Below, in pieces: positions 1-37,800 of a stretch of DNA of 42,352 nt. The stretch comes from Sphingobacteriales bacterium (lineage in GTDB: Bacteria > Bacteroidota > Bacteroidia > Chitinophagales > Chitinophagaceae). The translations under genes and the position numbers were made by a program. The stretch lies in NCBI GenBank assembly GCA_024642285.1, contig JAHEBJ010000014.1:1-42352 (forward strand), read 5' to 3'. Under the pieces are notes generated by a model. The model saw only the letters and a list, made by a program, of their open reading frames with translations, ran no database searches and was not told the origin of the DNA. Position 1 is the first letter of the stretch. Every line of letters starts with the position of its first letter.

Positions 1-1166
1 AAGGGGGGTATTTTTTCCAGGTAAAGGACAGGCTTTTTGATTCAAGACCTTTCGCCATCTATCTGCCTTCTGATAACAGGGACTTACGTTTATTAAGTGC
101 TGATAAACTTTTTGCTCCGGAAAATTTCGGTAATGGCACCGACAATAAATTTGCATTTAATGAATTGTCGGGATCAAGTTATCGCTACATCGCCAATTCA
201 ATCTTAAATGCAGGCTTCTTACAATTTAATAACAGGTTAACAGAGAAACTAAGTGTGGTTTGGGGGCTAAGAGTAGAAGATTTTGACCAGGTTATCGGGA
301 GTCTTAAAAAATCTGATCCACGCCATGTATACAGCAGAGTTACTGATTTCCTGCCCGGGTTAAATGCAAATTATAAAGTAAATAATAAAACCAATATTCG
401 CTTATCGGGTTCTCAAACAGTTATCCGACCAGAATTCAGGGAATTGAGCACGTTCCAGTTTTACGATTTTGACCTGGGTGCCACAGTTGCAGGTTATACA
501 GGCCTGGTAAGAACAAAAGTTTCCAATTTCGATCTCCGCTATGAATTATATCCAAGAGGCGGAGAGTTATTTACGCTCGGCGTCTTCTATAAATATTTCA
601 ATAATCCTATAGAGGCATATTTCAATCCAAGTTCAGGGGGCGCAAGCACCTACAATTTTCTTAATGCAACGGAAGCAATTAGTTTTGGAGCAGAACTGGA
701 ATTCAGAAAAAAACTTGACTTCAATCCCACATTTAAAAACTTCACTGTTCAGGGAAATATCTCTTATATATATAATCGTGTTGCCGGTATCGGACTTGAT
801 GAAGCCAGGGCCATGCAGGGACAAAGTCCCTATTTACTTAATGCCGGAATTCAATATGACATTGAAAAATACGGTATAAATACTACGCTTCTTTTTAATC
901 AGATAGGCAGAAGGATTGCATATGTTGGTGGAGGCGACCAACCTCCAATTTGGGAAAACCCCCGCCCATTACTTGATCTACAGATAGTAAAAAAGATATT
1001 ACAAAACAAGGGTGAATTAAAATTGAATATTTCAGATATCATCAACAAACAGGCGATTTTTTATACTGATCTGAACGGTAATAAGAAATTTGATAGTAAA
1101 GATGCGTTTGCCATCAAAAGAAAATACGGCAGTAATATCAGTGTAAGTTTCAGTTACAATTTTTAA
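1..1166 (+). CDS. TonB-dependent outer-membrane receptor, C-terminal part (5' end outside window)
   Basis: The frame is open from base 3 to the stop at 1164-1166, so about 387 C-terminal residues are visible and the plug and N-terminal domains are missing. The sequence has the alternating aromatic/polar strands of a large beta-barrel, for example LSVVWGLRVEDF and TNIRLSGSQTVIRPEFREL. It ends in VSFSYNF, the terminal aromatic expected for barrels assembled by BAM. The tail has a DLNGNKKFD stretch typical of Bacteroidota TonB receptors. It would sit in the outer membrane and import a ligand using ExbBD-TonB energy. The ligand cannot be read from this part. The next gene starts 29 bp downstream and encodes a lipoprotein, so the two are probably co-transcribed. 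The pst operon beyond suggests a phosphate-related ligand, which is inference only. A TTG at 165 is internal and not the start. Confidence 0.88.
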   Translation, partial: GGYFFQVKDRLFDSRPFAIYLPSDNRDLRLLSADKLFAPENFGNGTDNKFAFNELSGSSYRYIANSILNAGFLQFNNRLTEKLSVVWGLRVEDFDQVIGSLKKSDPRHVYSRVTDFLPGLNANYKVNNKTNIRLSGSQTVIRPEFRELSTFQFYDFDLGATVAGYTGLVRTKVSNFDLRYELYPRGGELFTLGVFYKYFNNPIEAYFNPSSGGASTYNFLNATEAISFGAELEFRKKLDFNPTFKNFTVQGNISYIYNRVAGIGLDEARAMQGQSPYLLNAGIQYDIEKYGINTTLLFNQIGRRIAYVGGGDQPPIWENPRPLLDLQIVKKILQNKGELKLNISDIINKQAIFYTDLNGNKKFDSKDAFAIKRKYGSNISVSFSYNF

Positions 1167-1195: not shown

Positions 1196-2608
1196 ATGAA
1201 AAAATTATTTCTTTACTCAGTATTAATTGCAGCAACGTCATTAAGCTGCCGCAAAATTGAAGTTGATGGCGGAACTACGGTTATTTCTGGTGGCGGAGGA
1301 ACAACTACCGAAAACACTATCCTTGAAGGAAGAATTAGTGAAAACCGTACCTTAAAAGCAGCTTATACATATAAACTGCGTGGCCTGGTGTATGTAACCA
1401 ATGGTGCTATCCTTACTATTGAGCCGGGTACAAAAATCGTAGGCGAAAATGGAAAGAACGGGGGGTTGATCATCACCCGTAGTTGCAAAATCATTGCAGA
1501 TGGTACAAAAGAGAAGCCAATCGTATTTACATCAGAAGCAGCAACTCCTCAACGTGGAGATTGGGCAGGGCTCGTTCTGTTAGGCAATGCGCCAACCAAT
1601 TCTTCTTTTAATGGTGTACAGGGTATTGGCGAAATTGAAGGAGGTATCAACAACAGTGATGGCCTGGGTTTGTATGGAACTCCTGCGACGCAGGCACAAA
1701 ATCCTGCAGACAACAGTGGAATCCTTCGCTATGTTCGTATAGAGTACGCAGGCTACGCTTTCTTACCAGATAAAGAGATCAACGGATTAACTTTTGGCGG
1801 TGTAGGCAGCCAGACAATAGTTGACTACGTGCAGGTATCTTATGCTAACGATGATTCCTTTGAGTGGTTTGGTGGCACTGTAAACTGTAAGCATCTTATT
1901 TCTTATAAAACACTGGATGATGATTTTGATACAGATAATGGTTACAGTGGAAAAGTTCAGTTTGGAATTTCAGTAAGAGATTCTGCAGTTGCTGATATTT
2001 CAAAAAGCGAAGCTTTTGAAAGTGATAATGACGCCAGCGGAAGTTCTTTGCTGCCGCAAACATCAGTTGTGTTCAGTAACATGACGGTAATGGGCCCCAA
2101 AGCAACATTGGGCAATACCGGAAACAGTTTATTTGTTTGGGGTGCACAGATCAGGAGAAACTCAAGCATGTCGCTTTTCAATTCTATCATCATGGGTTAT
2201 CCAAACGGGTTGTACATTGATGCAACAAAAGGTGTCCCCACAGATAATAATATTCCTGCATCTTTGTTTGTACAAAACAATATTATAGCCGGTTGCCCTA
2301 ACCCGGTTTTATACAGCATTGCCGGAAATTCAAACACACCCATTGCACCAAATACAACAGCTACCATAACCTCCTGGTTTAATACGCCTGTTTATGGTAA
2401 CAGTACCTATGCAACCAATAACGAAGTTGGACTTATTGCTCCATTCGATTACGCAACGCCCGATTTTAATCCTGCCGCCGGTTCACCTGCAGTTGCAGGT
2501 GCCAGTTTCAGTAATCCAAAACTGTCAACTGGTTTTACTGCCGTAAATTATAAAGGAGCATGTGCTGTAGGAGATACATGGTGGAAAAACTGGACAAAGT
2601 TTAATTAA
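1196..2608 (+). CDS. Exported lipoprotein with predicted right-handed beta-helix, unknown function
   Basis: The product has 470 residues. It begins MKKLFLYSVLIAATSLSC, a short lipoprotein signal with the acylated cysteine probably at C18, then a Gly/Thr-rich linker (about residues 25-40). The rest consists of short repeated strands such as ILTIEPGTKIVGE, PIVFTSEA and GDWAGLVLLG, followed by ILRYVRIEYAG and DYVQVSYANDDSFEWFGG. This pattern suggests a parallel beta-helix that may bind ligand at the cell surface. Such proteins are common in Bacteroidota and often follow a TonB-dependent receptor gene, as here. No catalytic motif is evident. A terminator follows, so the gene closes the receptor transcript. 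The lipobox is imperfect (S-L-S-C), but Bacteroidota tolerate this. A surface partner of the receptor is the best guess. Confidence 0.8.
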   Translation: MKKLFLYSVLIAATSLSCRKIEVDGGTTVISGGGGTTTENTILEGRISENRTLKAAYTYKLRGLVYVTNGAILTIEPGTKIVGENGKNGGLIITRSCKIIADGTKEKPIVFTSEAATPQRGDWAGLVLLGNAPTNSSFNGVQGIGEIEGGINNSDGLGLYGTPATQAQNPADNSGILRYVRIEYAGYAFLPDKEINGLTFGGVGSQTIVDYVQVSYANDDSFEWFGGTVNCKHLISYKTLDDDFDTDNGYSGKVQFGISVRDSAVADISKSEAFESDNDASGSSLLPQTSVVFSNMTVMGPKATLGNTGNSLFVWGAQIRRNSSMSLFNSIIMGYPNGLYIDATKGVPTDNNIPASLFVQNNIIAGCPNPVLYSIAGNSNTPIAPNTTATITSWFNTPVYGNSTYATNNEVGLIAPFDYATPDFNPAAGSPAVAGASFSNPKLSTGFTAVNYKGACAVGDTWWKNWTKFN

Positions 2609-2847: not shown

Positions 2848-3945
2848 ATGAAAATTTTTTCAGGAATAAAAAAAATAATATTTTCTGCATTAGTGCTCAC
2901 ATTAACCGGAAGCATCATGCAGGGTTGTAACAACGGATCAGGAGACGGCAATGCTGAAGTCAAAGGCGACGATAATACTTTGCTAGGTGCAGGCAGCACA
3001 TTTGTATATCCATTGTTTTCAAAACAATTCTCAGAGTATAATAAACTGAATGGTTTAAAAATTAATTATCAATCCATCGGATCTGGTGGTGGTATTCTTC
3101 AGTTAACCAACAAAACAGTTGACTTTGGCGATTCGGATGCTCCGTTGAATGAAGAGCAGGCAAAGAATATGGGGGCTACTGCTTTACATATTCCAATGGC
3201 TTCAGGAGCTGTGGTAATCAGTTATAATGTACCGGAAGTAAAAGACACGTTGAAATTAAGTCCCGATGTTTTAGCAGATATTTTTCTTGGTAAAATAACC
3301 AAATGGAATGATGCAAAGATTGCAGCCATTAACAACGGTGTACAATTACCGGCTACTTCTATAGTTGTTGCTCATCGTTCAGACGGAAGCGGCACAACAA
3401 ATATTTTTACAGACTATCTTTCTAAAGTAAGTGAAGAGTGGAAATCAAAAGTGGGTAAAGGTTCTTCCGTTAACTGGCCCGTAGGGCTTGGTGGAAAAGG
3501 AAACGAAGGTGTTGCAGGTTTGGTTAAGCAAACGCCGGGAGCTATCGGATATATTGAATTAGCTTATGCCATGCAGAACAAAATGTCGTTTGCAAAACTG
3601 CAGAACAAAGCCGGGCATTTTATCACGCCGAATCTTGCTTCAACAAGTGCAGCTAGTAATATTGAGTTACCTGCTGATTCAAAAGTTTCATTAACAAATA
3701 CCGATGCTGTTGATGGATATCCGATCAGTGGCTTTACCTGGGCACTTATTTATACTGAGCAGAATTATAACAAGCGTTCAGAAGCAAGGGCAAAGAATCT
3801 TGCGAAATTATTATGGTGGAATATTCATGAAGGTCAACAGTATTGCTCAGATTTGCATTATGCACCTTTGTCGCCCGCGGCAATTGAAGTAGCCGAAGCC
3901 ATTTTGAAAACGGCCACTTATAATGGTAAGATCATTTTGGAATAA
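2848..3945 (+). CDS. pstS: Phosphate ABC transporter substrate-binding lipoprotein PstS
   Basis: The protein has 365 residues and a lipoprotein signal ending SIMQGC, so C27 is the likely lipidated residue. It should be anchored in the membrane and deliver phosphate to PstCA. Family motifs are visible: GAGSTFVYPLF after the linker, IGSGGGILQL, DFGDSDAPL, and the phosphate-loop motif RSDGSGTTNIF. GAIGYIELAYA and the C-terminal WALIYTEQ block are also typical of PstS. The length is normal. The gene has its own promoter with phased repeats and is separated from pstC by a stable hairpin, which may let it be made in excess of the membrane subunits. The ATG at 2848 directly precedes the signal peptide. 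Confidence 0.97.
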   Translation: MKIFSGIKKIIFSALVLTLTGSIMQGCNNGSGDGNAEVKGDDNTLLGAGSTFVYPLFSKQFSEYNKLNGLKINYQSIGSGGGILQLTNKTVDFGDSDAPLNEEQAKNMGATALHIPMASGAVVISYNVPEVKDTLKLSPDVLADIFLGKITKWNDAKIAAINNGVQLPATSIVVAHRSDGSGTTNIFTDYLSKVSEEWKSKVGKGSSVNWPVGLGGKGNEGVAGLVKQTPGAIGYIELAYAMQNKMSFAKLQNKAGHFITPNLASTSAASNIELPADSKVSLTNTDAVDGYPISGFTWALIYTEQNYNKRSEARAKNLAKLLWWNIHEGQQYCSDLHYAPLSPAAIEVAEAILKTATYNGKIILE

Positions 3946-3970
3946 AGAGATTAATAAAAAATAAACCCTG

Positions 3971-4006
3971 GAAATTCCCGCTGTAAATAATACGGCGGGA
4001 AATTTC
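3971..4006 (+). other. Intercistronic hairpin between pstS and pstC
   Basis: Bases 3971-3983 pair with 3993-4006 to give a 13-bp stem with one bulged A (4000), one G-T pair and a 9-nt loop. No T tract follows, so it does not look like a terminator. An mRNA-stabilising or processing structure protecting the pstS message is more likely. Confidence 0.65.
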
Positions 4007-4018
4007 ATAATTAAGAGA

Positions 4019-4930
4019 ATGGAAGTTTGGAAAAATATTAAAATAAAGAGGTCCTTCCGGCAGATAAGGATGGAGAAGATATTCAGGTCTTCGCTGGTAC
4101 TTATCGCCATAAGCATCCTTGTTTTGGTATTGGCTTTTATGCTTACGTTGATCATCCAGTCCATGCCTTCAATAAAAGCATTGGGCTTTGGTTTCCTGTA
4201 CGGCAAAACATGGGATCCGGTTGTAAATATTTACGGCACATATCCTTTTTTGCTGGGTACTTTATTAACTTCTTTTTTAGCGCTGCTGATCTCCATACCT
4301 TTTTCATTTTCAATAGCTATTTTTTTAGGCGAGTATCATCCACGTGGCTGGTTTTCGGAGTTTTTGAAAAACGCCATTGAATTGATTGCTGCCGTGCCTT
4401 CGGTTATTTATGGCTTCTGGGGGTTGTTTGTTTTAGTGCCGCTGGTAAGGAGTTTAGAAATTAAATTGGGTGTTACTCCATATGGAATCGGAATATTTAC
4501 GTCCTCATTGATCCTGGCTATCATGATCATTCCTTATGCCGCATCACTAGGCAGGGAAATGATCCGCATGGTACCTGCATCTTTAAAAGAAGCTGCTTAT
4601 TCATTAGGTGCAACCAGGTATGAGGTTATTAGAATGGTGGTTATCCCTTACGCTAAATCAGGTTTGTTTGCCGGTGTTTTGTTATCACTCGGCCGAGCAT
4701 TGGGCGAAACCATGGCGGTGACGATGGTTATCGGTAACACCAGCATCATTCCAAAAAGTATTTTTGATCCGGGTAATACCATGGCCAGTGTTATTGCCAA
4801 TGAATTTACCGAAGCAGCAAGTACACTTTACCTGTCATCGCTGATCGAATTGGGCTTGATACTCTTTTTGGTAACGGTTGTCATCAACATCATCGGTAAA
4901 AAAGTTATTAAGCGTTTTACAACTGAATAA
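4019..4930 (+). CDS. pstC: Phosphate ABC transporter permease PstC
   Basis: This inner-membrane permease of 303 residues forms the phosphate channel with PstA. The sequence gives about six hydrophobic helices. The first (about residues 24-47) is followed by the periplasmic segment GFGFLYGKTWDPVVNIYGTY, typical of PstC. The ABC coupling motif that docks onto PstB lies in SLKEAAYSLGATRYEVIRMV. GRALGETMAVTMVIGN is the characteristic late-helix signature. An ATG at 4070 (residue 18) is a possible shorter start. The stop is followed after only 2 nt by the pstA start, which indicates translational coupling. Confidence 0.96.
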   Translation: MEVWKNIKIKRSFRQIRMEKIFRSSLVLIAISILVLVLAFMLTLIIQSMPSIKALGFGFLYGKTWDPVVNIYGTYPFLLGTLLTSFLALLISIPFSFSIAIFLGEYHPRGWFSEFLKNAIELIAAVPSVIYGFWGLFVLVPLVRSLEIKLGVTPYGIGIFTSSLILAIMIIPYAASLGREMIRMVPASLKEAAYSLGATRYEVIRMVVIPYAKSGLFAGVLLSLGRALGETMAVTMVIGNTSIIPKSIFDPGNTMASVIANEFTEAASTLYLSSLIELGLILFLVTVVINIIGKKVIKRFTTE

Positions 4931-4932
4931 TC

Positions 4933-5778
4933 ATGGCACAGAATATAAATTACAGGCTGGGTAAAAGCAAATCATTCAGGGGATTGGTAATCTTCTTTTC
5001 CATCTTGTGTACGCTTCCTTTATTCCTGATACTTTTTTATATCATCAGGGAGGGTATCATACATATAAACTGGAATTTTTTGATTAACCTACCCAAGCCC
5101 GTTGGCGAAACCGGTGGTGGCATTGCCAATGCGTTGATTGGCAGTTTACTGATTGTTTTTTATGCCGCTGTTATTGCCATACCTTTTGGTATCATGGGAG
5201 GGATTTACTTAAGTGAAAATAAAAATTCCTGGTTATCCTACTGGTGCCGCCTGTCGGTTGATGTCCTTCAGGGTACACCGTCAATCGTTGTGGGTATAGT
5301 TATTTATTTCTGGATTGTAAAACCATTGGGTACATTTTCAGCTTTATCCGGAAGTATAGCTTTGGCGGTGATGATGCTGCCCATCATTGTAAGATCAACA
5401 GAAGAAACTTTAAAATTATTGCCCTCTACTTTAAAGGAAGCGGGGCTTGCACTAGGGCTCCCATACCATAAAGTGATGTTGCGGATCATTCTGCCATGCG
5501 GATTCAGTGGTGTGCTTTCAGGAATAATTTTAGCAGTAGCAAGAATAGCTGGTGAAACTGCCCCACTATTATTTACAGCGTTTGGAAATCCTTATTTTAC
5601 CACAGATATTTCAAAGCCAATGCAGAGTTTGCCGTTGTTGATTTTTAACTATGCCACCAGTCCGTATGACGAATGGCACAACCTGGCCTGGGGAGCTGCA
5701 CTTATTTTATTACTATGGATATTATTGTTAAACATAATAACAAAGATCACGACGAGAAGATGGAAAATACAATTTTAA
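4933..5778 (+). CDS. pstA: Phosphate ABC transporter permease PstA
   Basis: The second inner-membrane permease has 281 residues and about six transmembrane helices. The first (about residues 20-40) is followed by a periplasmic stretch with [15 protein letters not shown], typical of PstA. The cytoplasmic coupling loop [21 protein letters not shown] contains the EAA-type motif that contacts Pst[18 protein letters not shown] is a strong family signature. The 3' end overlaps the chosen pstB start by 19 bp. Confidence 0.96.
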
Positions 5779-6518
5779 GATCAATAGATTTTGATGCCTA
5801 CTTTGGCGATAATCATGTTGTAAAGAAGGTGAATATGGACATTCCCAAAAACAACGTGATTGCAGTGATGGGACCATCAGGTTGTGGTAAAACAACTTTC
5901 CTGCGCTGTATTAACCGTATGCATGAACTGATTGAAGGTGCCAAGACAAAGGGAAAAATGTTGCTTAATGAGGAAGATGTTTATAGTATGCACCCAATCT
6001 TTGTAAGGCATAAGATAGGTATGGTGTTTCAGCGTCCTAACCCTTTTCCTAATTTAAGTATCTATGATAATGTGATTGCCGGGTACAAACTGAATGGAAT
6101 GAAAATTACCAGGGCAGACCGCGATGCAATTGTTGAATCCTCTTTACAAAAAGCAGCGCTGTGGAATGAGGTGAAAGATTCGTTGCATAAAAAAGGAACT
6201 TTTTTATCGGGCGGTCAACAGCAACGTTTGTGTATTGCCAGAGCCATTGCTATGGAGCCCGAAATATTGTTGTTGGATGAACCTACTTCGGCACTTGACC
6301 CCATTTCAACTTCCAGCATTGAGGAGCTGCTACACGAACTGAAAAAAAATTATACCTTGATCATTGTTACGCACAATATGCAACAGGCGGGCCGTGTAAG
6401 CGATAGGACTGCTTTTTTCTATATGGGAGAATTAATTGAATACGACGTTACAAAAAACATGTTCACTAATCCAAGAGACGAAAGAACACAAAATTATATA
6501 ACCGGACGTTTTAGTTAA
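5760..6518 (+). CDS. pstB: Phosphate ABC transporter ATPase PstB
   Basis: This cytoplasmic ATPase drives phosphate import through PstCA. With the ATG at 5760 it has 252 residues, normal for PstB. Walker A is GPSGCGKT (residues 38-45). The Q-loop lies in [11 protein letters not shown], the signature is LSGGQQQR, Walker B is [13 protein letters not shown], and the H-loop is in [10 protein letters not shown]. The chosen start overlaps pstA by 19 bp. An ATG at 5715 would add 15 residues ([15 protein letters not shown]) and cannot be excluded. A start at 5673 would put unrelated sequence in front of the domain and is unlikely. The function is certain; only the first residues are in doubt. Confidence 0.95.
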
Positions 6519-6542
6519 CGATCCTAAAAATAAAAGATAGTT

Positions 6543-7211
6543 ATGACACAGTTTGAGACAGAAATGCAGGATTTAAAATTGGAAGTGATCAATATGTGGC
6601 AGTTGGTGCTGCTGCAATTATCCAAATCAAAAGAAGCATTGTTAACATTTGATAAAGACCTGGCCAGAGAAGTTATTGCCATTGAGAAAAGAGTGAATTC
6701 ATTGGAATTAAAAATTGACAGAGATTGCGAAAATATATTTGCACTTTACTCACCGGTAGCCGTTGACCTGAGGTTTTTATTAGCTGCGCTAAAGATCAAT
6801 ACCAATCTCGAGAGGATTGGCGACATCGCCGAAGGCATCGCCGGATATGTTGTGGCATCCCCACAAAAATTCAATGCAAAAATGCTGGAGTCAACCCGGT
6901 TAGTTGAAATGTTTGACGGATCAATAAGTATTCTAACTGATACGCAAACGGCTTTTGAATTTGAGGATACGATTCTTGCCCGTACAATCTTTTCGAGAGA
7001 TGATGTTTTGGATGAGATAAACAGAAATGCCGACGACGGCGCTACAAAATATATCCGGGAAAACCTGGATACTATCCCTGAGGCACTATACATCATATCC
7101 ATAATCAGGAAGCTTGAACGTGTTGGTGACCAGTCAAAAAACATCGCAGAGGAAATTATTTTTTATGTGGAAGCAAAAGTTTTGAAACACAATAAGAAAG
7201 CTAAAGATTAA
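6543..7211 (+). CDS. phoU: Phosphate signalling protein PhoU
   Basis: PhoU is a cytoplasmic regulator that links PstSCAB to the PhoR kinase and keeps the Pho response off when phosphate is plentiful. The 222 residues form two similar all-helical halves. Each half carries the family metal-binding ExxxD motif: E90-D94 in NLERIGDIAEGIA and E192-D196 in KLERVGDQSKNIAEEI. The gene follows pstB after 24 bp and closes the pst operon. Its TAA stop shares bases with the stop of the kinase gene on the other strand, so the two meet tail to tail with no spacer. Confidence 0.96.
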   Translation: MTQFETEMQDLKLEVINMWQLVLLQLSKSKEALLTFDKDLAREVIAIEKRVNSLELKIDRDCENIFALYSPVAVDLRFLLAALKINTNLERIGDIAEGIAGYVVASPQKFNAKMLESTRLVEMFDGSISILTDTQTAFEFEDTILARTIFSRDDVLDEINRNADDGATKYIRENLDTIPEALYIISIIRKLERVGDQSKNIAEEIIFYVEAKVLKHNKKAKD

Positions 7212-8257
7212 TCCTTCTTACTAAGCAGTGTAAAACCAAAAGTACTGCCCACATCTATCTTACTGCGTACATGAATGGATTGACCGTGTGCTTCAATAAT
7301 ATGTTTGCAGATTGACAATCCCAATCCGCTGCCACCTTCTTTGCGGCTCCTGGCAAGATCTGTACGATAAAACCGTTCAAAAATTCGAAGTAAATGTTCT
7401 TCGGCAATACCTGCGCCATCATCACTGATCTCTATCAAAACCCTGACTTCATCTACCTTATAGAAACTAGCTTCGATAATACCCGACTGCTTGCCGTATT
7501 TAATTGCATTATCTACCAGGTTAATTAGCACCTGTCTTATTTTCTCCTTATCGGCATAAACAGTTAGTGGCAATTCACATCCCTTTTTTATAATACAGTT
7601 TATTTCCTTTTCATCAGCCTTTAGCGAAAGCGTATCATAAACTTCTTTCAGCAGGTCCTGAATTACAAAGTTATCCTGAACAACCGGATGCTCACCACTT
7701 TCCAGCTTTGAAATGGCATCCAGATCTTCAACGAGATTTACAAGCCTGTCAACATTACGGGATGTACTTTGAAGAAACTTTACATTTACTTCGGGTTTTT
7801 CCAATGCACCATTAAGTAATGTATCAATATAACCTTGTATGGCAAAAATGGGCGTCTTCAGTTCATGGCTCAGGTTTTGTAAAAACTCTTTCCTGAATAC
7901 TTCATTTCGCTGTAAAAGTTCAATTTCTGCTTTACGTTGTTCTGCCCATGCTTCAACGTCTTCTCTTACTTCGTCAATACTTTTTTGTGGCAAAATATTT
8001 TTGTAATAAAACTCCTCTTTTCTAGTGGCTTTAGTTTGATAAATGAACTTATAAATGAGCTTTATTTTGCGATAGATGAACGTCTGCAGGGTGTACAATA
8101 TCAGTCCATAAGTGCCGGCAAAAATTACAATGAACGACAAAAAAGCTATCCACCAAACAGGTTTAAAAATAAATATTCCAATGGCTATAGGAATGGATAA
8201 TCCCAGCGCTGTTAGCAAGGATAATTGCTGTGGTGATATATTTTTTTTTGAAAGCAT
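7208..8257 (-). CDS. phoR: PhoR-like sensor histidine kinase
   Basis: This membrane histidine kinase of 349 residues is probably the partner of the upstream regulator in the phosphate response. Two helices (about residues 12-31 and 34-58) are joined by only a few residues, so there is almost no periplasmic domain. A coiled-coil-like segment leads to the H-box NLSHELKTPI with the phosphorylated histidine at H131. The catalytic domain shows the N-box NLVDNAIKYGK, the G1 box DDGAGIAEEHL and the G2 box SGLGLSICKHIIEAHG. Unlike E. coli PhoR, no PAS domain fits between the membrane and the H-box. The name rests on architecture plus the position facing phoU; a kinase for another signal is less likely. 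Confidence 0.85.
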   Translation of the reverse strand: MLSKKNISPQQLSLLTALGLSIPIAIGIFIFKPVWWIAFLSFIVIFAGTYGLILYTLQTFIYRKIKLIYKFIYQTKATRKEEFYYKNILPQKSIDEVREDVEAWAEQRKAEIELLQRNEVFRKEFLQNLSHELKTPIFAIQGYIDTLLNGALEKPEVNVKFLQSTSRNVDRLVNLVEDLDAISKLESGEHPVVQDNFVIQDLLKEVYDTLSLKADEKEINCIIKKGCELPLTVYADKEKIRQVLINLVDNAIKYGKQSGIIEASFYKVDEVRVLIEISDDGAGIAEEHLLRIFERFYRTDLARSRKEGGSGLGLSICKHIIEAHGQSIHVRSKIDVGSTFGFTLLSKKD

Positions 8258-8343: not shown

Positions 8344-9027
8344 TTACAGATCAAATTTGTACCCAACTCCTTTTACTGTGGTGATACAATCGAGGTTTAG
8401 TTTTTGCCTGATCTTACGGATATGTACGTCAATGGTGCGGTCGCCAACAATAACTTCGGTTCCCCAAACCTGGTTTAGTATTTCATTACGTAAAAAAACT
8501 TTACCCGGTTTGCTTGCCAGCAAAGCCAGTAACTCAAATTCTTTACGAGCCAGGTTAATATCTTTTTCTTTGAGAATTACCAAATATTTTTCCCGGTCGA
8601 TCTTCAGATCACCAATTTGTAACAAGCCGGTTTCTTCTTTATTCAGTCGTCTGAACAGCGCATTAACTTTACTTGTTAATACTTTTGGACTAATAGGTTT
8701 GGTAATAAAATCATCAGCACCGGTTTCTAATCCTTTTACTTCGGTTACTTCATCACTCAACGCAGTAAGAAAAACGATCAATGTTTCTTTAAATGCAGGC
8801 TGCATCCTTAACAAATTGCAAACCTCAATACCATTCTTCTCTGGCATCATAATATCCAATATGATCAAATTTGGCTGAAAAGATTTCGCTTTATCCAACG
8901 CATCATTCCCGTTTTTAACTGCCACCACCTCATAACCCTCGTTTTGAAGATTATATTGAATGATTTCCAGAATATCGGGTTCATCATCAGCAATCAGTAT
9001 TTTATTTGGCGAATTAACCCTGCTCAT
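8344..9027 (-). CDS. PhoB/PhoP-like OmpR-family response regulator
   Basis: This DNA-binding regulator of 227 residues has an N-terminal receiver domain. It contains the acidic pair in ILIADDEPD, the phospho-acceptor D58 in LIILDIMMP, a conserved Thr in FLTAL and K110 in FITKPIS. The C-terminal winged-helix domain (about residues 130-227) shows the recognition-helix motif VGDRTIDVHIRKIRQKL and the closing VKGVGYKFDL. The ATG at 9027 is chosen. A TTG nine bases upstream lies inside the -7 promoter element and is unlikely to be used. The kinase gene follows after 86 bp, so the pair is probably one transcript. Control of pst through the phased repeats at 2735 is inferred from context. Confidence 0.9.
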   Translation of the reverse strand: MSRVNSPNKILIADDEPDILEIIQYNLQNEGYEVVAVKNGNDALDKAKSFQPNLIILDIMMPEKNGIEVCNLLRMQPAFKETLIVFLTALSDEVTEVKGLETGADDFITKPISPKVLTSKVNALFRRLNKEETGLLQIGDLKIDREKYLVILKEKDINLARKEFELLALLASKPGKVFLRNEILNQVWGTEVIVGDRTIDVHIRKIRQKLNLDCITTVKGVGYKFDL

Positions 9028-9033
9028 AGGATA

Positions 9034-9062
9034 CAAAAATAGTCTTTACCTTTAATGAACAA
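9034..9062 (-). promoter_or_regulatory. Promoter of the response-regulator/kinase operon
   Basis: Read on the - strand, TATTTTTG (9041 to 9034) is a perfect TAnnTTTG -7 element. A TTG (9062 to 9060) lies 18 nt upstream as the -33 element. Transcription would begin around 9030, only a few bases before the ATG at 9027, which implies a very short leader. Confidence 0.6.
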
Positions 9063-9135
9063 GCCGGTTTACAGTTTAAGTTGTATTATATAATTGTTAA
9101 GCAAGCTGTATTAACAATAATTTTTATTGTGTCGG

Positions 9136-9188: not shown

Positions 9189-11405
9189 ATGAAAAAAACT
9201 GCACTTTTTTTATTTCTGTTCATTTCGGCCTATCCTGTTTTTGCAAGCCAGGATTCTTTAATTATCCCTATTTACCGTCAACTTTTTCATGATAGAATTG
9301 ATAGCGAACAAATTGAACTGGACAAACAAGACGGGAAAAAAGATGATTTCATCACGGCTACCAATAAACCGGAAGTTAACGTGATAATTACCGAAATAAT
9401 GACAAGGAGAATTGACGAATTGCAGGTTATAGTTGAAAAGGACAGTGCCATAAAAACAAATAACGAAAAAGTAAGGTACCTCAGCTATATAGAAAATCTG
9501 GTAAAGGGATACCGGGCCGGAATAAAATCCAAAGAAATTAACCCTGCTTTAGCTCCCCTTTTTATTGAAAATTTTGCCAACGCTATGAAAGCCAATATAG
9601 CGGGTGAGCATATAGCTCCTTTGCTTAATGCAGCACAATATCCAATAGCAAAATTGCTGGCCGAAATTTTTTCTGATAATATAGATTATGAAGAAAACAA
9701 GAAGATCATTTATAAAAAATACTGTTCGCTAAACCCTGATAAGATCCTACAGACTATTACTCCATTCATTGACGAACCATTTGCAGATTCACTGATTGTT
9801 GTAAGTTGTAAATTTAATCCTACAGCTGTGTACACCCGGGCCCAGGCGCCGGCATCCACACTCGGCATATTGGTACACCGCAATAATCATCCGGTAGTTA
9901 AAGCAGTTGTAGCGCTAAGCCAAACACCAAATGCTTTGCTGTACTTTCCTTTTCTCGACGATATCTTAAAAGGCAAAAAAACTATTGAAAGTATAAAACC
10001 GTTTATTGGTGAAGACGGAGTTGGCTACGACAGTGTTGGTTATTATAAGTTACTCGTAAAAACCGAAATTGATTATTATACCCGGATGACAAAGGCGCCA
10101 AAAGATACTCCCATTGCCATGTTTGGCACCAATGGCCTTAGAGAAACTTTAAAAAACAAAGCCAATCAGCATTTTATCACACCTATAAATATACTGCACG
10201 ACCTGTCAAACATCAATAAGCGTATGGCATCAACTGATTCTTTGTCGGCGGTTGAACTTTACTATATGATGGTAATGGGCGAAAATGAAATTTATACTTC
10301 CAGTTTTAAACACAGTTTTTCCAGGATGATACAACGCCTGGGTAAAACGCCTGGTACCGATACGTTGCTGCTTACTGTTCATTTTGACTTTTTTAAGAAG
10401 TTTATAAAAATGGCCGCTAACTATAATAAACTTGATGAATTTTTAAGCTATATGCCAAAAGAAAATTCGGAAGTGTTGATGCGTGGTTTTATAGCTAACC
10501 TTGATAATACCGGCAGCCTTGAAGATGCGATCGACGTAGCCGACTCGTACAGCAGCATCACCGATAGCAGTTTACAGATTACTATTCTCAAGTACATTGC
10601 TGAAAACGAAGCCCGTTGTGTTAAAGAAAATAACAGCAGAGGTAAAACCATTTATGGTTTGTTGCGTACAATATTCCTTTCGGCTAATCCAGATAACAAA
10701 ATAGACCTCACAGCAGCGCTGGGCATTCCTTCAATTTTTGAAATTGAAAACAAAGATCTTCGGGATGACAGTGGCAGAATTATTCAACAGGTTTATTGGT
10801 ATGGTGATAAGGATGGAAAAACATTTTTTCCGTCGTTTATCAACTCATTTTCAACACGTGAATGGACGATAACGGCTTTACCAGAATGGTATGAGATAAA
10901 ATCGAAAAAAGGCAAAGTGTGGATTTACGCTAACCGTCCGCTTGATAATGATAATAATCTGGACGACTCTGCCCAGATCCACCTGAACAGCTATCTCAGC
11001 GAAAAAGGGTTATACCCTGCTGTTATCATCCACCGCGGCCACAGCTACTGGTTACCCCGTACCATAAAACGCATGAGTGGCTATGCAAAAATTGTAATGC
11101 TGGGTTCATGTGGTGGTTATAAAAATTTAAACGACATCATTAAAGTAAATCCCGATGCTAATATAATCTCCACCAAAGAGATTGGCTCTGGAGATATTAA
11201 CCGTCCCATCATCAATTACTTGAACCAAACCTTTGAAGCCGGCGATAAACTGGTTTGGAAAGATATGTGGGTATCTCTTACCCGGCTATTTGAAAACGAC
11301 CCAAGCAGATCGGTAAGGGAAAGCTGGGATAATTATATTCCACCGTATAAAAATCTGGGTGCCATTTTTCTAAAAGGATATAATAATTTAAAACAGGAAG
11401 AATAA
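9189..11405 (+). CDS. Exported protein of unknown function with putative C-terminal caspase-like (clan CD) protease domain
   Basis: I recognise no named family. From the ATG at 9189 the protein has 738 residues and a clear signal peptide, MKKTALFLFLFISAYPVFA, cleaved near residue 19. A TTG at 9156 would put polar residues before the signal and is rejected. Residues 20-560 look mostly helical, with many Asp, Glu and Lys. The C-terminal part shows two hydrophobic strands, each ending in a candidate catalytic residue: PAVIIHRGHS (H615, H618) and KIVMLGSCGG (C641). Strand-His-Gly followed by strand-Cys-Gly is the layout of caspase-fold peptidases (caspases, gingipains, CHAT). The His-Cys spacing of 23-26 residues is shorter than usual. 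The gene is divergent from the Pho-type regulator and 107 bp before an ABC exporter. Protease activity is inference; the dyad could be non-catalytic. Confidence 0.6.
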   Translation: MKKTALFLFLFISAYPVFASQDSLIIPIYRQLFHDRIDSEQIELDKQDGKKDDFITATNKPEVNVIITEIMTRRIDELQVIVEKDSAIKTNNEKVRYLSYIENLVKGYRAGIKSKEINPALAPLFIENFANAMKANIAGEHIAPLLNAAQYPIAKLLAEIFSDNIDYEENKKIIYKKYCSLNPDKILQTITPFIDEPFADSLIVVSCKFNPTAVYTRAQAPASTLGILVHRNNHPVVKAVVALSQTPNALLYFPFLDDILKGKKTIESIKPFIGEDGVGYDSVGYYKLLVKTEIDYYTRMTKAPKDTPIAMFGTNGLRETLKNKANQHFITPINILHDLSNINKRMASTDSLSAVELYYMMVMGENEIYTSSFKHSFSRMIQRLGKTPGTDTLLLTVHFDFFKKFIKMAANYNKLDEFLSYMPKENSEVLMRGFIANLDNTGSLEDAIDVADSYSSITDSSLQITILKYIAENEARCVKENNSRGKTIYGLLRTIFLSANPDNKIDLTAALGIPSIFEIENKDLRDDSGRIIQQVYWYGDKDGKTFFPSFINSFSTREWTITALPEWYEIKSKKGKVWIYANRPLDNDNNLDDSAQIHLNSYLSEKGLYPAVIIHRGHSYWLPRTIKRMSGYAKIVMLGSCGGYKNLNDIIKVNPDANIISTKEIGSGDINRPIINYLNQTFEAGDKLVWKDMWVSLTRLFENDPSRSVRESWDNYIPPYKNLGAIFLKGYNNLKQEE

Positions 11406-11512: not shown

Positions 11513-13315
11513 ATGAGTGGTAAGACCGGGGCAAAAAAAATTTTCGATTTCGCTTTACTGCGCAGGGTATTTCATTTTGCAGCTCCTTATAAAAATAAAT
11601 TTTATGCTTCGCTGCTCCTGGCTATAGTGCTGGCGGCTATTGCACCGGTGCGTCCAATGTTGATTCAGCTTACTATCAATGAGGGAATAAAAAACGATAC
11701 TACATCGAACTACATAGCGGGTCCCGGAGGTTTTATTATTGAGATCACTATAATTCAAATTGTCCTCTTATTACTGGAAACCGGGTTTCGTTTCCTGTTT
11801 ACTTTTCTAACTGCATCACTTGGGCAAAGTGTGGTAAAAGATATTCGAGTGAGTACTTACAACAAAATTCTTCATCTCAACTTAAGGCAATACGATAAAA
11901 CACCGATTGGCACATTAACAACAAGAACAATCAATGACATTGAATCTATCAACGAAATTTTCAGTGACGGACTCATACCTATTATTGCCGACCTGCTGGC
12001 GATTTTCTCGGTACTTACTTATATGTTTTATGTAGACTGGCAACTTACGTTGGTTTGTCTTGCACCTTTTCCTTTTTTAATAGTTGCAACTTATTATTTT
12101 AAAGAAAGTGTAAATAAATCTTTTATCAGGGTGCGTAATGCGGTAGCCAATCTTAATGCTTTTGTGCAGGAACATATTACCGGTATGGCAGTCGTGCAGG
12201 CATTTGCCGCCGAAAAAAGAGAGTTTAATAAATTCAACCGAATTAATAAAGAACACCGCAACGCAAATATCCGGGCCATTTTTGCCTACTCCGTTTTCTT
12301 TCCTATTGTAGAACTTGTGATGGCATTATCCATCGGCTTACTGGTATGGTGGGCCGCAAAAGATGTGGTAAGTGCAGCACAAGCCGAAAAGGTGGCAGGT
12401 GTCATCACCGCATTTATTCTTTGTCTTAATTTATTGTTCAGGCCGTTGCGGGTTATCGCCGATAAATTCAATATCCTGCAAATGGGTATGATTGCCAGCG
12501 AACGGGTTTTTAAAGTGCTGGATAATGATGATACAACTATAAGAGAAGGTAATGCCAGTGCAGATAATATAAAAGGTAAAGTTGAATTTGAAAATCTTTG
12601 GTTTGCCTATATTGATGAACAATATGTTTTAAAGGACATAAGCTTTACGCTTGATGCCGGCGATACACTGGCCATTGTTGGTCACACGGGCAGCGGCAAA
12701 ACTTCCATCATTAGTTTATTGAACAGGCTCTATCAGATAAATAAAGGCAACATAAAAATTGATGACATCAATATTGAAGATTATCATCTGGATGAACTAA
12801 GATCAAAAATTGCTGTAGTGTTGCAGGATGTATTTTTATTCAGTGGCTCGGTAAAAGATAATGTTACGCTTCGAAATCCGGATATAAAAGATGAAGATGT
12901 AATTGCTGCAGCAAAGATGATTGGCATACATGATTTTATTTTGCAATTGCCAGGCGGCTACGATTATAATGTGATGGAAAGGGGGGCAACACTTTCATTG
13001 GGACAACGCCAGTTGCTTTCTTTTGTTAGAGCCTTATTGTACAACCCGGCCATTTTAATTTTAGATGAGGCTACATCATCGGTTGATACCGAAAGCGAAG
13101 CCCTCATTCAGCATGCCATTGAAACGCTCATAGCGGACCGTACTTCTATTGTGATAGCCCATCGACTTTCCACCATCCGCAAGGCGGATAAAATTATTGT
13201 GTTGGATAAAGGCGAGATAAAAGAAATGGGCAGTCATGACGAGTTACTGGAAAAACGTGGGTTTTACTTCCAATTACACAAAATGCAGTTTGAAAGGCAG
13301 GATAACTTGACATAA
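11513..13315 (+). CDS. ABC exporter half-transporter (MsbA/MdlB type)
   Basis: This inner-membrane exporter of 600 residues has a fused transmembrane and ATPase domain and would work as a dimer. Six hydrophobic helices lie within about residues 30-320. The ATPase domain has Walker A GHTGSGKT (390-397), Q-loop Q438, Walker B ILILDEA with catalytic E519, and H-loop H550. Its signature is LSLGQ (494-498) instead of LSGGQ, a variation seen in some exporters. The substrate cannot be read from sequence; lipid, drug or peptide export are all possible. It lies alone, 107 bp after the caspase-like gene. TACCTTTA at 11501-11508, just before the ATG, resembles a -7 element but would leave almost no leader. 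Confidence 0.9.
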   Translation: MSGKTGAKKIFDFALLRRVFHFAAPYKNKFYASLLLAIVLAAIAPVRPMLIQLTINEGIKNDTTSNYIAGPGGFIIEITIIQIVLLLLETGFRFLFTFLTASLGQSVVKDIRVSTYNKILHLNLRQYDKTPIGTLTTRTINDIESINEIFSDGLIPIIADLLAIFSVLTYMFYVDWQLTLVCLAPFPFLIVATYYFKESVNKSFIRVRNAVANLNAFVQEHITGMAVVQAFAAEKREFNKFNRINKEHRNANIRAIFAYSVFFPIVELVMALSIGLLVWWAAKDVVSAAQAEKVAGVITAFILCLNLLFRPLRVIADKFNILQMGMIASERVFKVLDNDDTTIREGNASADNIKGKVEFENLWFAYIDEQYVLKDISFTLDAGDTLAIVGHTGSGKTSIISLLNRLYQINKGNIKIDDINIEDYHLDELRSKIAVVLQDVFLFSGSVKDNVTLRNPDIKDEDVIAAAKMIGIHDFILQLPGGYDYNVMERGATLSLGQRQLLSFVRALLYNPAILILDEATSSVDTESEALIQHAIETLIADRTSIVIAHRLSTIRKADKIIVLDKGEIKEMGSHDELLEKRGFYFQLHKMQFERQDNLT

Positions 13316-32528: not shown

Positions 32529-34820
32529 CTAAAACGGCAAACCCAGAGCTATATTCAATATAAGGTTTTCCCTTCTCCAGGCACTGCTGCCAAAATCTAT
32601 CTGCTTTAAAACCCATCGCTGCCCATCTGGCAAATAAGGTTTCCGCAGCGGGACCCCGATATCAACTCTTATTAATACAACACTTGCATCATAACGCACA
32701 CCGATACCGGAAGCCACGGCAAGTTCTTTAAACCAGTTTTTGCTGAGTTGTCCTTGCTTGCCAAAAAGCAATGTATCTTTTGTCCAGATATTTCCTGCAT
32801 CAAAAAAAACTGTCGTGCTAAGACTAGATGTTATAGACAACCGAATTTCTGAATTGAAAAGAAACTTGTAGTCGCCGCCGATTAACTGAAAAAAACGTTG
32901 ATCAATCAACGTTGGCTTATATGTTCCAGGCCCCAAATTGCGAACTCTGAAGCCCCTGATGGAACTGGAACCACCAATAAAATATTGTTTTGCAAATGGA
33001 AGTAATGCAGAATTGCTGTATGGAAAACCAATGCCTAACTGAATCCTGTTTGCCCATTCAACATTCTTCACCAATTTCCTCGTGTAATGAAGGTCAAAAT
33101 CAGTTTTAACATATTGAGCAAATGGAGTATTGAAAATTTCTTTTTGTCTGAAGCTTTTTGCACCTGATACGAGCCCCGCAATATTACCAGAAAGGTCGAT
33201 ACCTGCATTAAAATGCCATTTATTTTTTCCTCTCTTTGATCCTTTGTTGAATGTATAAGTAAAATAACTTCCCAAAATTGCCTCGGAATAAACACTGAAC
33301 AAAATCTCGGGTGTAGCTATCACCTGTCGGTAAAAAGAATCAGTAATATCACTTGCGTTTAAATAGCTTAATGAAACCGGGGCAAATGTAAATTCATTAT
33401 TAGCATTAGTTTTCCAGGTAAAATCATATTGCAATCGAAATAAATTTTTCGTGTAATATAACTGCCTGCGGTAGAGTTCATATCCAATCAACAAATTTGT
33501 ATTGGGAGGATAAAAATTATTCTCTTTTATACGCAAAAAAGGTATTGCATAATAGGGAAACTTAATACTGGTTTCTCCTCCCAATCGGTAGGTATTATTA
33601 TTACTCAATGAATCGGCATAAGGAATTTCTAAGGCTGCATATGTTTTAAGTGTAAGTAATTCGGCGCCTCTAAAAAGGTTCTTGTTTTTCCAGTTAATAC
33701 TAATTTGGCCACCCACAGAATTATTTTCTTTAATAAAACCATCAACCTCGCTCTGCAACGATTTCATTTTAGCAGGGGTAAGATAATAGTATACATTCAT
33801 CCAGTGCTTGTTAGCAGAATCCTTATCTGCTTCGAATCTGTTTTTTACAAATTTAAAAGTACCAAGGCTGATCAAACGGTTTAATGTTGAATTTTGTGAT
33901 CGGCTGCTGTACAAACTACCGGGCCTGTACGTTACAGCGTTGGAAAAAAGCTTAGGCTTAAATTTTTTAGTCGAATCCTTTATATACAGTCTGTCAATTC
34001 CAACCGCACCGCTGATACTGGTATCCATTTGAGCTTTTAAAAGTGAATAATTGGGGAACACCGCAATATTATTTATGTAGTATGGATACTTTGCCTGTTC
34101 CGGAATATTTTTCTTTACATTGAAATAAAGATCAACCTGACGATTACCAATAGAACTGTCGGCATACGCCATCAGGTAATCGGCATTAAAATAATAGTAA
34201 CCCCTGTTTTTTAAATACAGATCGAGCCGGTCTCTTTCGGCACTAATATTGCTTAACGTATATGGATCTCCAGCTTTTATAATGCCTCTTCTTTTTTGGT
34301 GTTCTTCCAATAAATTCAAAAGATCTGAGCTATCCTTTATCCACTTAATACTTTTAATATGGTATTGTGGCTGCACGTTTGCTGTATAAATTGCTTTAGT
34401 AAAGTAACCTGAGTTCAAAGTATCTCCACGCACGGTTGTATGAAAGTACCCGGTATTTTCCATAAATGACTGTATATTCTCGGCGGTAGCATTTGCATTT
34501 ATCCTACTGCTGAGTACAGGCGCTTCTCCTAATTTTCTTCGCAGAAAAGGGCGGAGGCCTTTTTCCTTTTTTGATTCACCTATTACATACCACCACCAGA
34601 CTTTATATGGCTGCCCGAGTATGAATTTATTTCTGTTAGGCTTTACAGCAAGTTTCAATTGTTTTGCCAGTTCTTTTTCTGATTCTTTTACTTCGGAGCT
34701 TTTCTTAACAACAATTCTAGCACCTTTGTAGAGTTTTTCACCAGGTGGTAAAAACCGGTTTACACTGCACGACGTTATTGCTGACATCAAAATCAATCCA
34801 AGAAAATAATTCCTATTCAT
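32529..34820 (-). CDS. tamL: TamL: TamA-like Omp85 outer-membrane lipoprotein
   Basis: Omp85 proteins insert or translocate other proteins at the outer membrane. This one has 763 residues and begins with a lipoprotein signal, MNRNYFLGLILMSAITSC, with C18 as the lipid site. POTRA-like repeats fill about residues 25-345. The C-terminal barrel carries the Omp85 lid-loop motif IRGF (621-624, in GGSSSIRGF) and ends in NIALGLPF, with the terminal aromatic. A lipidated TamA relative encoded beside tamB is the TamL type described for Bacteroidota. It starts 16 bp after tamB, so the two form an operon. Confidence 0.9.
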   Translation of the reverse strand: MNRNYFLGLILMSAITSCSVNRFLPPGEKLYKGARIVVKKSSEVKESEKELAKQLKLAVKPNRNKFILGQPYKVWWWYVIGESKKEKGLRPFLRRKLGEAPVLSSRINANATAENIQSFMENTGYFHTTVRGDTLNSGYFTKAIYTANVQPQYHIKSIKWIKDSSDLLNLLEEHQKRRGIIKAGDPYTLSNISAERDRLDLYLKNRGYYYFNADYLMAYADSSIGNRQVDLYFNVKKNIPEQAKYPYYINNIAVFPNYSLLKAQMDTSISGAVGIDRLYIKDSTKKFKPKLFSNAVTYRPGSLYSSRSQNSTLNRLISLGTFKFVKNRFEADKDSANKHWMNVYYYLTPAKMKSLQSEVDGFIKENNSVGGQISINWKNKNLFRGAELLTLKTYAALEIPYADSLSNNNTYRLGGETSIKFPYYAIPFLRIKENNFYPPNTNLLIGYELYRRQLYYTKNLFRLQYDFTWKTNANNEFTFAPVSLSYLNASDITDSFYRQVIATPEILFSVYSEAILGSYFTYTFNKGSKRGKNKWHFNAGIDLSGNIAGLVSGAKSFRQKEIFNTPFAQYVKTDFDLHYTRKLVKNVEWANRIQLGIGFPYSNSALLPFAKQYFIGGSSSIRGFRVRNLGPGTYKPTLIDQRFFQLIGGDYKFLFNSEIRLSITSSLSTTVFFDAGNIWTKDTLLFGKQGQLSKNWFKELAVASGIGVRYDASVVLIRVDIGVPLRKPYLPDGQRWVLKQIDFGSSAWRRENLILNIALGLPF

Positions 34821-34836
34821 ATCGGCCGCTTAAAGT

Positions 34837-37800
34837 TCATTTTTTCTTTTTCCATCCAAAAAGTTCATTGAATGTGTCAAAGTCCAGGGTTACTATAAAT
34901 CCCAACCCTGTCTCAACTATAAATCCATCCATAAAAACTTCATATTGATTTTTACGATATGCCTTCAGTAAATACTTGCCATCTTTCGAAAGTTTATAGC
35001 CAAACGTTACGTCGGGTATGTAATCGTTGTTTGATTTTGACGCAGCTTCCTGCCCCTGTACTGCAAAATGTTTTCCAAGGCTTATGGTTAACCTGTCATT
35101 AAAAAAACTTTTGCTCATAGCTATATTAAGATCCGTATGTTGTGTAGCAACCCCGTTATTATAATCTTTGTAATTGTTAAGATTTAAATCAATGTCTATT
35201 CCCTCCAATAAGCCTTGTGCAATTTCATTTAATGCTGATGAAAGAAAGTGACTTACACTCTGCCGGGCAAGATCATCAAAATCAGTACCAGTTCCTTTAA
35301 AGAAGTCGCTGCTTTGTTCACTGATAAATTTGTTAAGCAATAAAAGTGAAAAAACCTGCTTATTGGTCGAAGACTCATCAATACGCAACTGTGCCAGCTT
35401 ATTTTCAATTGTTGTTCGAACATCGCTGTTAATGGTTGCATCTTCGTCTACCAGCTGGATATCAAATTTTAAAATTGGTTTGTTTAATGTCCCTGTCAAA
35501 TAGAGTATTACCTTAAAGGGAATTTTTTTGTTTAAGGAATTGGTAAGTGCGGGATCGGCATTTCCTACTTCATTTCCTAACAGATCGTTAGCTGAAGATT
35601 TAACTGTATAGGAAGCAACGATATCCATTCTTGCCCTCATAGGGTCGCCAGCAAACATAATCGAACTGCCCTTTTCCAATATAAATTTACGTTTCAGAAA
35701 CTGGTAATTAAAATCATAATATCCACTCGTCAATTCGTAAATACCAGAAAGGACGATATGCCCCCCGGGGTCCACTCCTGCATTCAGGTTAGCTGCCCCC
35801 TTTACATTTATTTGGTCACCGGTAATTGGATCAATAACAATAGTCAGTTCTGCTTTTTTCTGTACTTCAACAGTAAGATTGTAATTGAGAAACTGAGCAA
35901 ACCCCGGTACGGCTTCTTCCTTTTCAGCAAATGGCTTATAAAGTGATTTCAAATCAAAAGTATCGAGATCGATAAAACGAACGATTGTCTTTCCCTCATC
36001 TTTACTGTAACTGGTTTCAGGAACAACAATAACAACATTACTTTTATCCTTTACAGTAATATCTCCCCGGATAACAGGAGAAACCAAATTCCCCGTAATC
36101 TTAATATTCAGATCTGCGACTGCCAGACCGTAAAAGTCGCTTACGGTGGACTTAGGGGCATTAAGTAAAATAAAATCAGCAGCATTTATACCAAGATCAA
36201 AAATAAATTCCCTGGCTTCATCCTCTTTAACATTGCCGTCAATTTTCAACTGGTTATTCAAAGAATCAGATATGATAAAATAATCCAGTTTTATTTCAGG
36301 ATATTTAAAAACAATTTTCTGTTTTTTTATACTAAACGCTGTACCTAATTGAGCAATATTGAATCTTGCAGTGTCGAAATTTAACTGGCCATTCCAGCGT
36401 GGATCATCAAACCGCCCATTCAGGTTCATATTGCCATACATATTACCCGAAGCATTCTTTAACTCGCCTCCGGCAAATGCCTCCAAATCAGCAACATTGA
36501 ATTTATTAATGGTGGCGTTAATATCAAATTGCTGCTGAGTGTTGTTTAAATAATAATTTCCAATAGCAGCAATATCATTTCCTTTTCCTTTTAATCCAAG
36601 AACAACCAAAATATTATCGTCGGTCTTTTTTTCACCCAACGCCTGTAAATTTCCAAAAGGTATTTGCTTGATTGCAAGATCGGTTATAGAAAAAAAACCG
36701 CTAAAAGCAGGCAGTTCTTTCTTCAAGTCAGTCACTTCCATTTTTGCCATTAAAATGCCTGATAAAAAAACTGTATCCTGGTTTATAATTGAACTAATGC
36801 TTTTTAAATTAAATTTTTCAATATCAATTACGATTAAGCTGTTTGAAAGTTCTTGTTTACTGTTTACATATATTTTTGAGGTGTCGTTGGTTATTAAGAG
36901 ATTATGGATGATTAACCCATCAGGTGAATATTTTACATAATTGTCGGCAGCTACCTCCCAATTTTCATAATTGAGAAGCAGTTTGTCTTTGAGATGGAAA
37001 AAATAATTTTTGTCCTTGGCAAAAAACGATGCTTTTCCTCCAAACCAATCTTTGCCTTTTTTATCTTTTGTAATTGTATTTATTAAAATACTGTCATTGG
37101 CTATAGTTCCGTTAATCACGCTACCATAAAAAATCCCTGATGCATGATTTAATGTATCAAGATTAATATCATAGTTTAATCTTTCATTTTCAGAAACAAC
37201 ATCAATGCTGCCATTCCGGATAGCATAATCATCGTAGGCCAGGTAAGGAACGAATAATTTCAAGTTTAAGGCACTGTCAGTTTTGTCAGATGCAAAATTT
37301 CCGCTGAAATTAATGTTGCTGTAATCTTTGAGCCCTGGCACAAAGGTTGTTATCAACGGATGTTTTTTTACTACCCCTTCAAATACCACTTGCTGATGGG
37401 AAAAATTTTTTGCGACAACAGAATCAGATATGCTATAATAATGATTGACATATTGAACAACCACATCGGCAATTTTATTATAATCAAAGCCACCTTGTAC
37501 ATGGAGGTCAGCAAAAGGTGCGTTTAAATTTATATCATCTATTCCATTAGCCGTGGTTGCAACTAACGAAATACTATCTACAGAATAATACTTTTTTCCA
37601 ACCTGCATCTTTACTGAATCAATGAGTGTGGTAACATCAAGATGCCGCGGTTGAGTATTATTAGCTGCAATCTTAGCCTTTAGTGAAAAATTCAATGTGT
37701 CATCATACAAGTTAAGATTCTGAAGCTGTGCTGTATCGATATTTATAAAACCAACTAAAGATGGGTATTCATTTTGAAGATTCGCCCTAACATCATATTG

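Follow-up and report, generated by a model that had tools for sequence, protein, structure and literature searches.

What does the open reading frame at positions 9,189 to 11,405 of contig JAHEBJ010000014.1 (assembly GCA_024642285.1, Sphingobacteriales bacterium, Chitinophagaceae) encode, and what could its product do beside a PhoB-like regulator? The whole stretch analysed here, 42,352 nucleotides in length, is referred to as the window. The original prediction, made from the letters of the window, proposed a secreted clan CD cysteine protease, possibly a degenerate one, of an uncharacterised family. The 738-residue product belongs to an unnamed family in which a signal peptide, judged by eye, is followed by a predicted helical region and a predicted C-terminal caspase-fold (clan-CD-like) domain. 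The protein probably functions as a cysteine endopeptidase that acts at specific sites in the cell envelope. The wider proposal is a new clan CD family with an HRGHS/GSCGG site, namely an exported, separase-shaped protease that is near-universal in one Bacteroidota family, occurs in Azospirillum, and is kept in one order beside a PhoB/PhoR-like pair for an undescribed phosphate or envelope response; our confidence in this proposal as a whole falls just short of even. The protein is accordingly filed as a clan-CD-like candidate for a new family and as a member of no named one.

The protein begins with MKKTALFLFLFISAYPVFA-S, which by eye reads as the signal peptide originally claimed. Its hydrophobic core is short, since no 19-residue segment averages more than 1.6 in a Kyte-Doolittle scan of the 738 residues. 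No type IX secretion tail was found by NCBIfam at E ≤ 5. The long helical region noted earlier reappears in the full predicted model, where residues 28–511 form helices only, single bridge residues excepted. In the model of the C-terminal domain, DSSP assignment gives the clan CD core order β1-α1-β2-α2-β3-α3-β4 set out in PMC4357240, with an extra two-strand meander before β2; the predicted domain thereby has the element order of a caspase-like sandwich. The two motifs lie behind paired strands at the positions first assigned to them. H615 occupies the fourth position of strand 612–616 and H618 lies two residues past the end of this strand, while C641 lies three residues past strand 635–638. 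By sequence position, the histidine precedes the cysteine and the two are found at the C-terminal ends of β3 and β4, which is the clan CD placement. A His-Gly pair after β3, a usual but not a formal mark of the clan, is absent, and HRGHS stands in its place. The top VIA match of the predicted domain is a clan CD peptidase, the C11 member iotapain.

The candidate active-site residues are conserved beyond what chance would give. The homologue search scored 7993 candidates and retained 2142 proteins at E ≤ 1e-3. From 51 homologous open reading frames (ORFs), eight of ≤690 residues were left out (the truncated L038, L040, L042, and L043, and two pieces each of L044 and L049), giving 43 full-length rows including the window protein, and H615, R616, G617, H618, S619, G639, C641, and G642 are each present in 43/43. 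A broader alignment of 107 rows (A3), whose least similar members share 20% identity with the window protein and which includes paralogues at 20–24%, leaves 25 of the 718 window residues from 21 to 738 invariant. Ten of these lie in the helical part (P183, P211, F255, N334, L336, H337, R345, T370, S371, and S372) and fifteen in the C-terminal part (Y538, D540, W559, N582, Q596, H615, R616, G617, H618, S619, Y620, G639, C641, G642, and W690). C641 is the one invariant cysteine of four in residues 21–738, and three of the eleven histidines, H337, H615, and H618, are invariant. For the domain, 294 unique homologues yielded 293 rows, of which 292 have letters in the motif region; P0216, a fragment without this region, was dropped. 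Over these 292 rows, H615, R616, G617, S619, G639, and G642 are each found in all, C641 in 291, and H618 in 290. The exceptions are one metagenomic protein with Tyr at position 641 and two paralogues of about 1000 residues with Tyr or Leu at position 618, which keep D540, H615, and C641.

Many of the rows are close relatives; on clustering at 50% identity, H615, H618, and C641 are kept together in 17 of the 19 clusters, and H615 and C641 in the other two. Both motifs, 26 residues apart, occur at all eight of the loci that come from two other families in the class (f120 and f125) and in all three translated proteins of the four found on Azospirillum plasmids. A diverse set of 25 copies below 800 residues, which includes Azospirillum and leaves out the long (about 1000-residue) paralogues, retains R345, T370, S371, F405, D540, D542, H615–S619, G639–G642, N671, W690, W694, Y716, and P719 as invariant. 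The question raised with the original prediction, whether C641 and H615 or H618 are invariant, is thus answered essentially in the affirmative; free variation of Cys641 and both histidines is not what the alignments show, and the suggestion of a degenerate protease does not fit their conservation. A second conserved patch is located in the helical region at residues 334–372 (10188–10304), with N334, L336, H337, R345, T370, S371, and S372 invariant in A3, and R345, T370, and S371 remain so when Azospirillum is added. The proteins of the Azospirillum plasmids (L173–L175, Alphaproteobacteria) keep YTSS, YDDPDG, HRGHSY, and GSCGG motifs and show no Pfam match above cut-off.

The 738-residue protein gave no hit above cut-off in Pfam or NCBIfam and none in PADLOC, and PDB sequence searches returned no relative, which bears out its assignment to an uncharacterised family. 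Among 120 listed homologues, "hypothetical protein" is the sole source name, one entry showing a flag alone. So conserved a family without a matching Pfam or NCBIfam model constitutes an annotation gap. A role in a defence system was considered and dropped, three family members being without a PADLOC match.

In the proposed mechanism, C641, in the loop after strand 4, would attack the peptide bond, assisted by a histidine of HRGHS where strand 3 ends, either H615 or H618. The helical region would bind and present the substrate in the manner of separase and TPR-CHAT. The spacing to C641 is 26 residues from H615 and 23 from H618. The original prediction took this short spacing to indicate a minimal variant. 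That description was dropped because a 26-residue spacing is known from separase, where the human catalytic pair is H2003/C2029 (PMC9729208, PMC12609080). H615 is never lost in the rows examined, whereas H618 is lost in two, and the catalytic histidine of inactive TPR-CHAT is described within a sheet in PMC9729208. H615 is slightly favoured over H618 as the catalytic residue. D540 and D542 lie at the start of helix 1 in the domain model, where, according to PMC4357240, Asp163 of the gingipain RgpB binds the P1 arginine. By this analogy, we would guess at a basic P1 specificity.

The gene is widespread in the bacterial family of the window (f1), where a C-terminal profile (A1) detected it in 234/244 genomes, 204/209 good ones, and 99/101 genera; f1 is taken to be Chitinophagaceae because the relatives from named records are mostly titled Chitinophagaceae or Ferruginibacter. 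It is not confined to this family, as had been considered. In the order, 39/119 genomes carry it, 28 of them outside f1, and 25 of these 28 have at least two matches. In 20 of the 25 multi-copy genomes, two copies share a contig and are separated by no more than a few kilobases, as frames of about 1000 and about 700 residues. Such adjoining long and short copies were seen in other families of the order at L141–L146, L150, L155, and L156, two of the long copies being without H618 and keeping C641. In the class, profile A5 found the gene in 15/295 genomes (7 of f1 and 8 of f120/f125), and in the phylum 14/395 genomes have it, all of f1. One weak phylum match (G107, E 3.7e-4) was rejected as a 46-residue open frame with two stops, and it is absent with profile A5. 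Beyond the phylum, where plasmids and phages were searched, 4 of 72,556 plasmid records contain the gene, all from Azospirillum, and no family member was found in the phage records. A second, distant copy exists in the genome of the window itself (L002/L078, contig C155); this paralogue has 23–27% identity and the same motifs, lacks a regulator or exporter nearby, and as a query recovers 103 relatives at E ≤ 1e-3. A long paralogue used as the query led to one distant protein.

The gene order claimed originally, with the gene divergent from a PhoB-type regulator and preceding an ATP-binding cassette (ABC) exporter, was recovered at the locus and recurs in its relatives. The PhoB-like regulator is divergent and adjoining in 34 of the 36 relatives taken from named records, the other two (L038 and L042) having almost no upstream sequence, and the exporter is next downstream in 33, L040 and L043 having no downstream sequence and L019 about 1 kb without an exporter match. 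Of 11 main copies from other f1 genera, 9 have the divergent regulator and 7 the downstream exporter, and neither gene adjoins the distant paralogues L078 and L080. A regulator or kinase with 42–57% identity was found at 5 of 17 loci in other families of the order (L143, L145, L149, L155, and L156), and L150 has a kinase match at 28% alone. At L143, L145, and L149, the regulator, the kinase, and the candidate protease gene are co-directional; 86 bases separate the kinase from the candidate protease gene in L143 and 23 in L149, and one extra gene lies between them in L145. The link between the gene and the two-component pair is strong in one order and is not a property of the whole family; no such pair was seen beside the gene at the eight f120/f125 and three Azospirillum loci. 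In the window, Pst and phoU genes adjoin this locus (2848–7211); they were not found in the flanking sequence of relatives examined. A phosphate role of the regulator/kinase pair is supported by L070, where a PhoU-like DUF47 gene and a phosphate permease gene follow the kinase. In the bacterial family of the window, the candidate protease would probably take part in an envelope response under the control of the neighbouring PhoB/PhoR-like pair.

The spacer between the regulator and the gene contains a conserved 16-base element with the consensus ATTATNAAATTGTTAA. It occurs with ≤2 mismatches in 38 of 43 spacers, comprising 5/9 from other genera and 33/34 from near relatives, the latter count not being independent because the consensus was read from some of those spacers; shuffled spacers show mean mismatches of 4.0–5.7. 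The element may be part of an operator or promoter. A genome-wide Pho box is not supported, with 4 genome sites at ≤1 mismatch versus 2 for the reversed pattern. Elsewhere in the window, an Omp85-family gene adjoins a gene for a 1759-residue TamB-like protein (32529–40116, minus strand), which looks like an outer-membrane assembly pair. A 470-residue protein without a Pfam match (1196–2608, plus strand) is encoded beside a TonB-receptor-like ORF, and this pair recurs in several relatives, e.g. L016, L041, and L048.

Table. Positions in the window of the candidate protease gene, its predicted parts, and its neighbours (pLDDT, predicted local distance difference test; pTM, predicted template modelling score).
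Feature	Position	Strand	Basis or detail
Exported-protein gene	9189..11405	+	ATG 9189, stop 11403-11405; 738 residues plus stop
Signal peptide, residues 1-20	9189..9248	+	judged by eye
Helical region, residues 28-511	9270..10721	+	full model, mean pLDDT 89.6
T370-S371-S372 of helical region	10296..10304	+	invariant in A3; T370 and S371 remain so in the 25 rows that include Azospirillum
Predicted caspase-fold domain, residues 527-738	10767..11402	+	domain model pLDDT 92.0, pTM 0.90; model 30..241 matched to C11 iotapain by VIA
YGDKDG, residues 538-543, between strand 1 and helix 1	10800..10817	+	D540 293/293, D542 291/293; each invariant across the diverse 25-row set
HRGHS motif, residues 615-619, where strand 3 ends; H615 or H618 as candidate catalytic His	11031..11045	+	conservation, domain model
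GSCGG motif, residues 639-643, following strand 4; C641 as candidate nucleophile	11103..11117	+	conservation, domain model
W690 and W694, after strand 5	11256..11270	+	W690 292/292, W694 289/291; each invariant across the diverse 25-row set
PhoB-like response regulator, divergent neighbour	8344..9036	-	best NCBIfam TIGR02154 PhoB, 224.2 bits, below cut-off 296.2
PhoR/PnpS-like histidine kinase	7208..8257	-	HisKA, HATPase_c; best NCBIfam NF046044 PnpS, 245 bits, cut-off 400
MsbA-like ABC exporter, downstream neighbour	11513..13315	+	TIGR02203, 465.6 bits, below cut-off 602
Conserved 16-base element, regulator/gene spacer	9085..9100	+	one mismatch in window copy

The reading as a clan CD cysteine protease stands in part: element order, His/Cys placement, the top VIA match, and conservation speak for it, while the missing His-Gly and a modest structural match do not, and the activity itself is suggested by sequence and model. 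Several observations weigh against it. The structural match is just modestly above those to unrelated α/β proteins, and our confidence was slightly lowered because no more than one clan CD entry appears among the best 50 matches listed for the domain alone. No caspase, gingipain, or separase was present among the best 50 Foldseek matches listed for each of the two models, and profile comparison showed no sequence relationship to CHAT, C25, or C14. A Cys/His dyad would not by itself call for two near-invariant histidines and two near-invariant aspartates. This surplus would suit a metal-dependent hydrolase, such as a phosphatase or amidase, with a metal ion bound by H615/H618 (HxxH), D540/D542, and perhaps C641 where the sheet has its C-terminal edge, and linkage to a PhoB-like regulator would suit a phosphatase. 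Such an enzyme is nevertheless unlikely, as two of the long paralogues have another residue at 618 while retaining D540, H615, and C641, C641 is as conserved as the histidines, the residue placement fits clan CD, and no Pfam or NCBIfam match rises above cut-off.

Some caspase-fold domains act as regulators, and gene order links the protein to a kinase that could hold at most a small periplasmic domain, the sole hydrophobic stretch of this kinase covering approximately residues 11–61. An inactive, exported scaffold or regulator, e.g. of this histidine kinase, would have no need of the dyad candidates, which are kept in those rows of two phyla that were examined; we regard such a role as quite unlikely. 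We would be more surprised still by another cysteine-dependent α/β enzyme, such as an acyl or peptidyl transferase or a pyroglutamyl-peptidase-like amidase, in place of a clan-CD-like protease. A Ras-like P-loop GTPase as the C-terminal domain was rejected as next to impossible, since the GxxxxGK[ST] P-loop is absent (Gly at 539 in 167/293 rows and Lys at 544 in 161/293), the protein appears to be exported, and no Pfam GTPase match was found. If the clan CD protease reading is correct, the predicted active site, the presence in 234/244 genomes, and the gene order provide a testable hypothesis of a protease devoted to the envelope and controlled by a PhoB-like regulator. Clan CD would also gain a family with separase-like architecture, a helical region joined to a protease domain of 26-residue His-Cys spacing, in exported bacterial proteins, which bears on the origin of separase.

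Members of a clan are grouped by structure and function rather than by sequence similarity, as stated in a recent review (PMC12445089). For comparison with the known families, HHalign profiles of CHAT, C25, and C14 were built from related genomes with 20 rows per family. The scores are insignificant (CHAT 1.9–2.1%, C25 0.9–1.0%, and C14 0.7–2.2%), and descent from any of the three was not demonstrated by sequence. Decoy profiles from eight neighbouring genes reached ≤0.7%, with scores up to 19.4 that overlap those of C25 and C14, and the reversed query gave ≤0.2%. For C14 (PF00656), there is no Pfam match and the HHalign probability is ≤2.2%. C11 matched at E ≤ 1e-15 in 1 of 60 class genomes, too few for a profile. 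This clostripain-like family includes iotapain of Bacteroides thetaiotaomicron (PDB 6nag/6n9j), whereas the present protein has no Pfam C11 (PF03415) match; in PmC11, according to PMC4357240, H133 and C179 are 46 residues apart, versus 26 or 23 residues here, and the family has His-Gly where HRGHS stands here. Gingipain and PorU (C25) are exported Bacteroidota proteins, as is predicted here. A profile alignment without significance pairs their DDEDG with YGDKDG, the His of GHG with H615, and their Cys with C641; there is no Pfam C25 (PF01364) match, and the HHalign probability is ≤2.0%. For CHAT (PF12770), there is likewise no Pfam match, and the probability of ≤5.2% is the highest of all comparisons. 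We know of no TPR-CHAT protease with a signal peptide. The CRISPR-linked Csx29/Craspase has H585 and C627 42 residues apart, in contrast to 26 or 23 here. Separase (C50) is eukaryotic and intracellular and acts on cohesin, while the family here is bacterial and predicted to be exported. None was among the PDB sequence matches up to E 10 or the Pfam matches, and H2003-G2004 forms a His-Gly pair where the present family has His-Arg. In its overall plan, separase joins helical repeats to a C-terminal protease domain, and in the model the present protein joins a helical region to a caspase-fold domain, with a His-Cys spacing of 26 if H615 is catalytic and 23 if H618 is.
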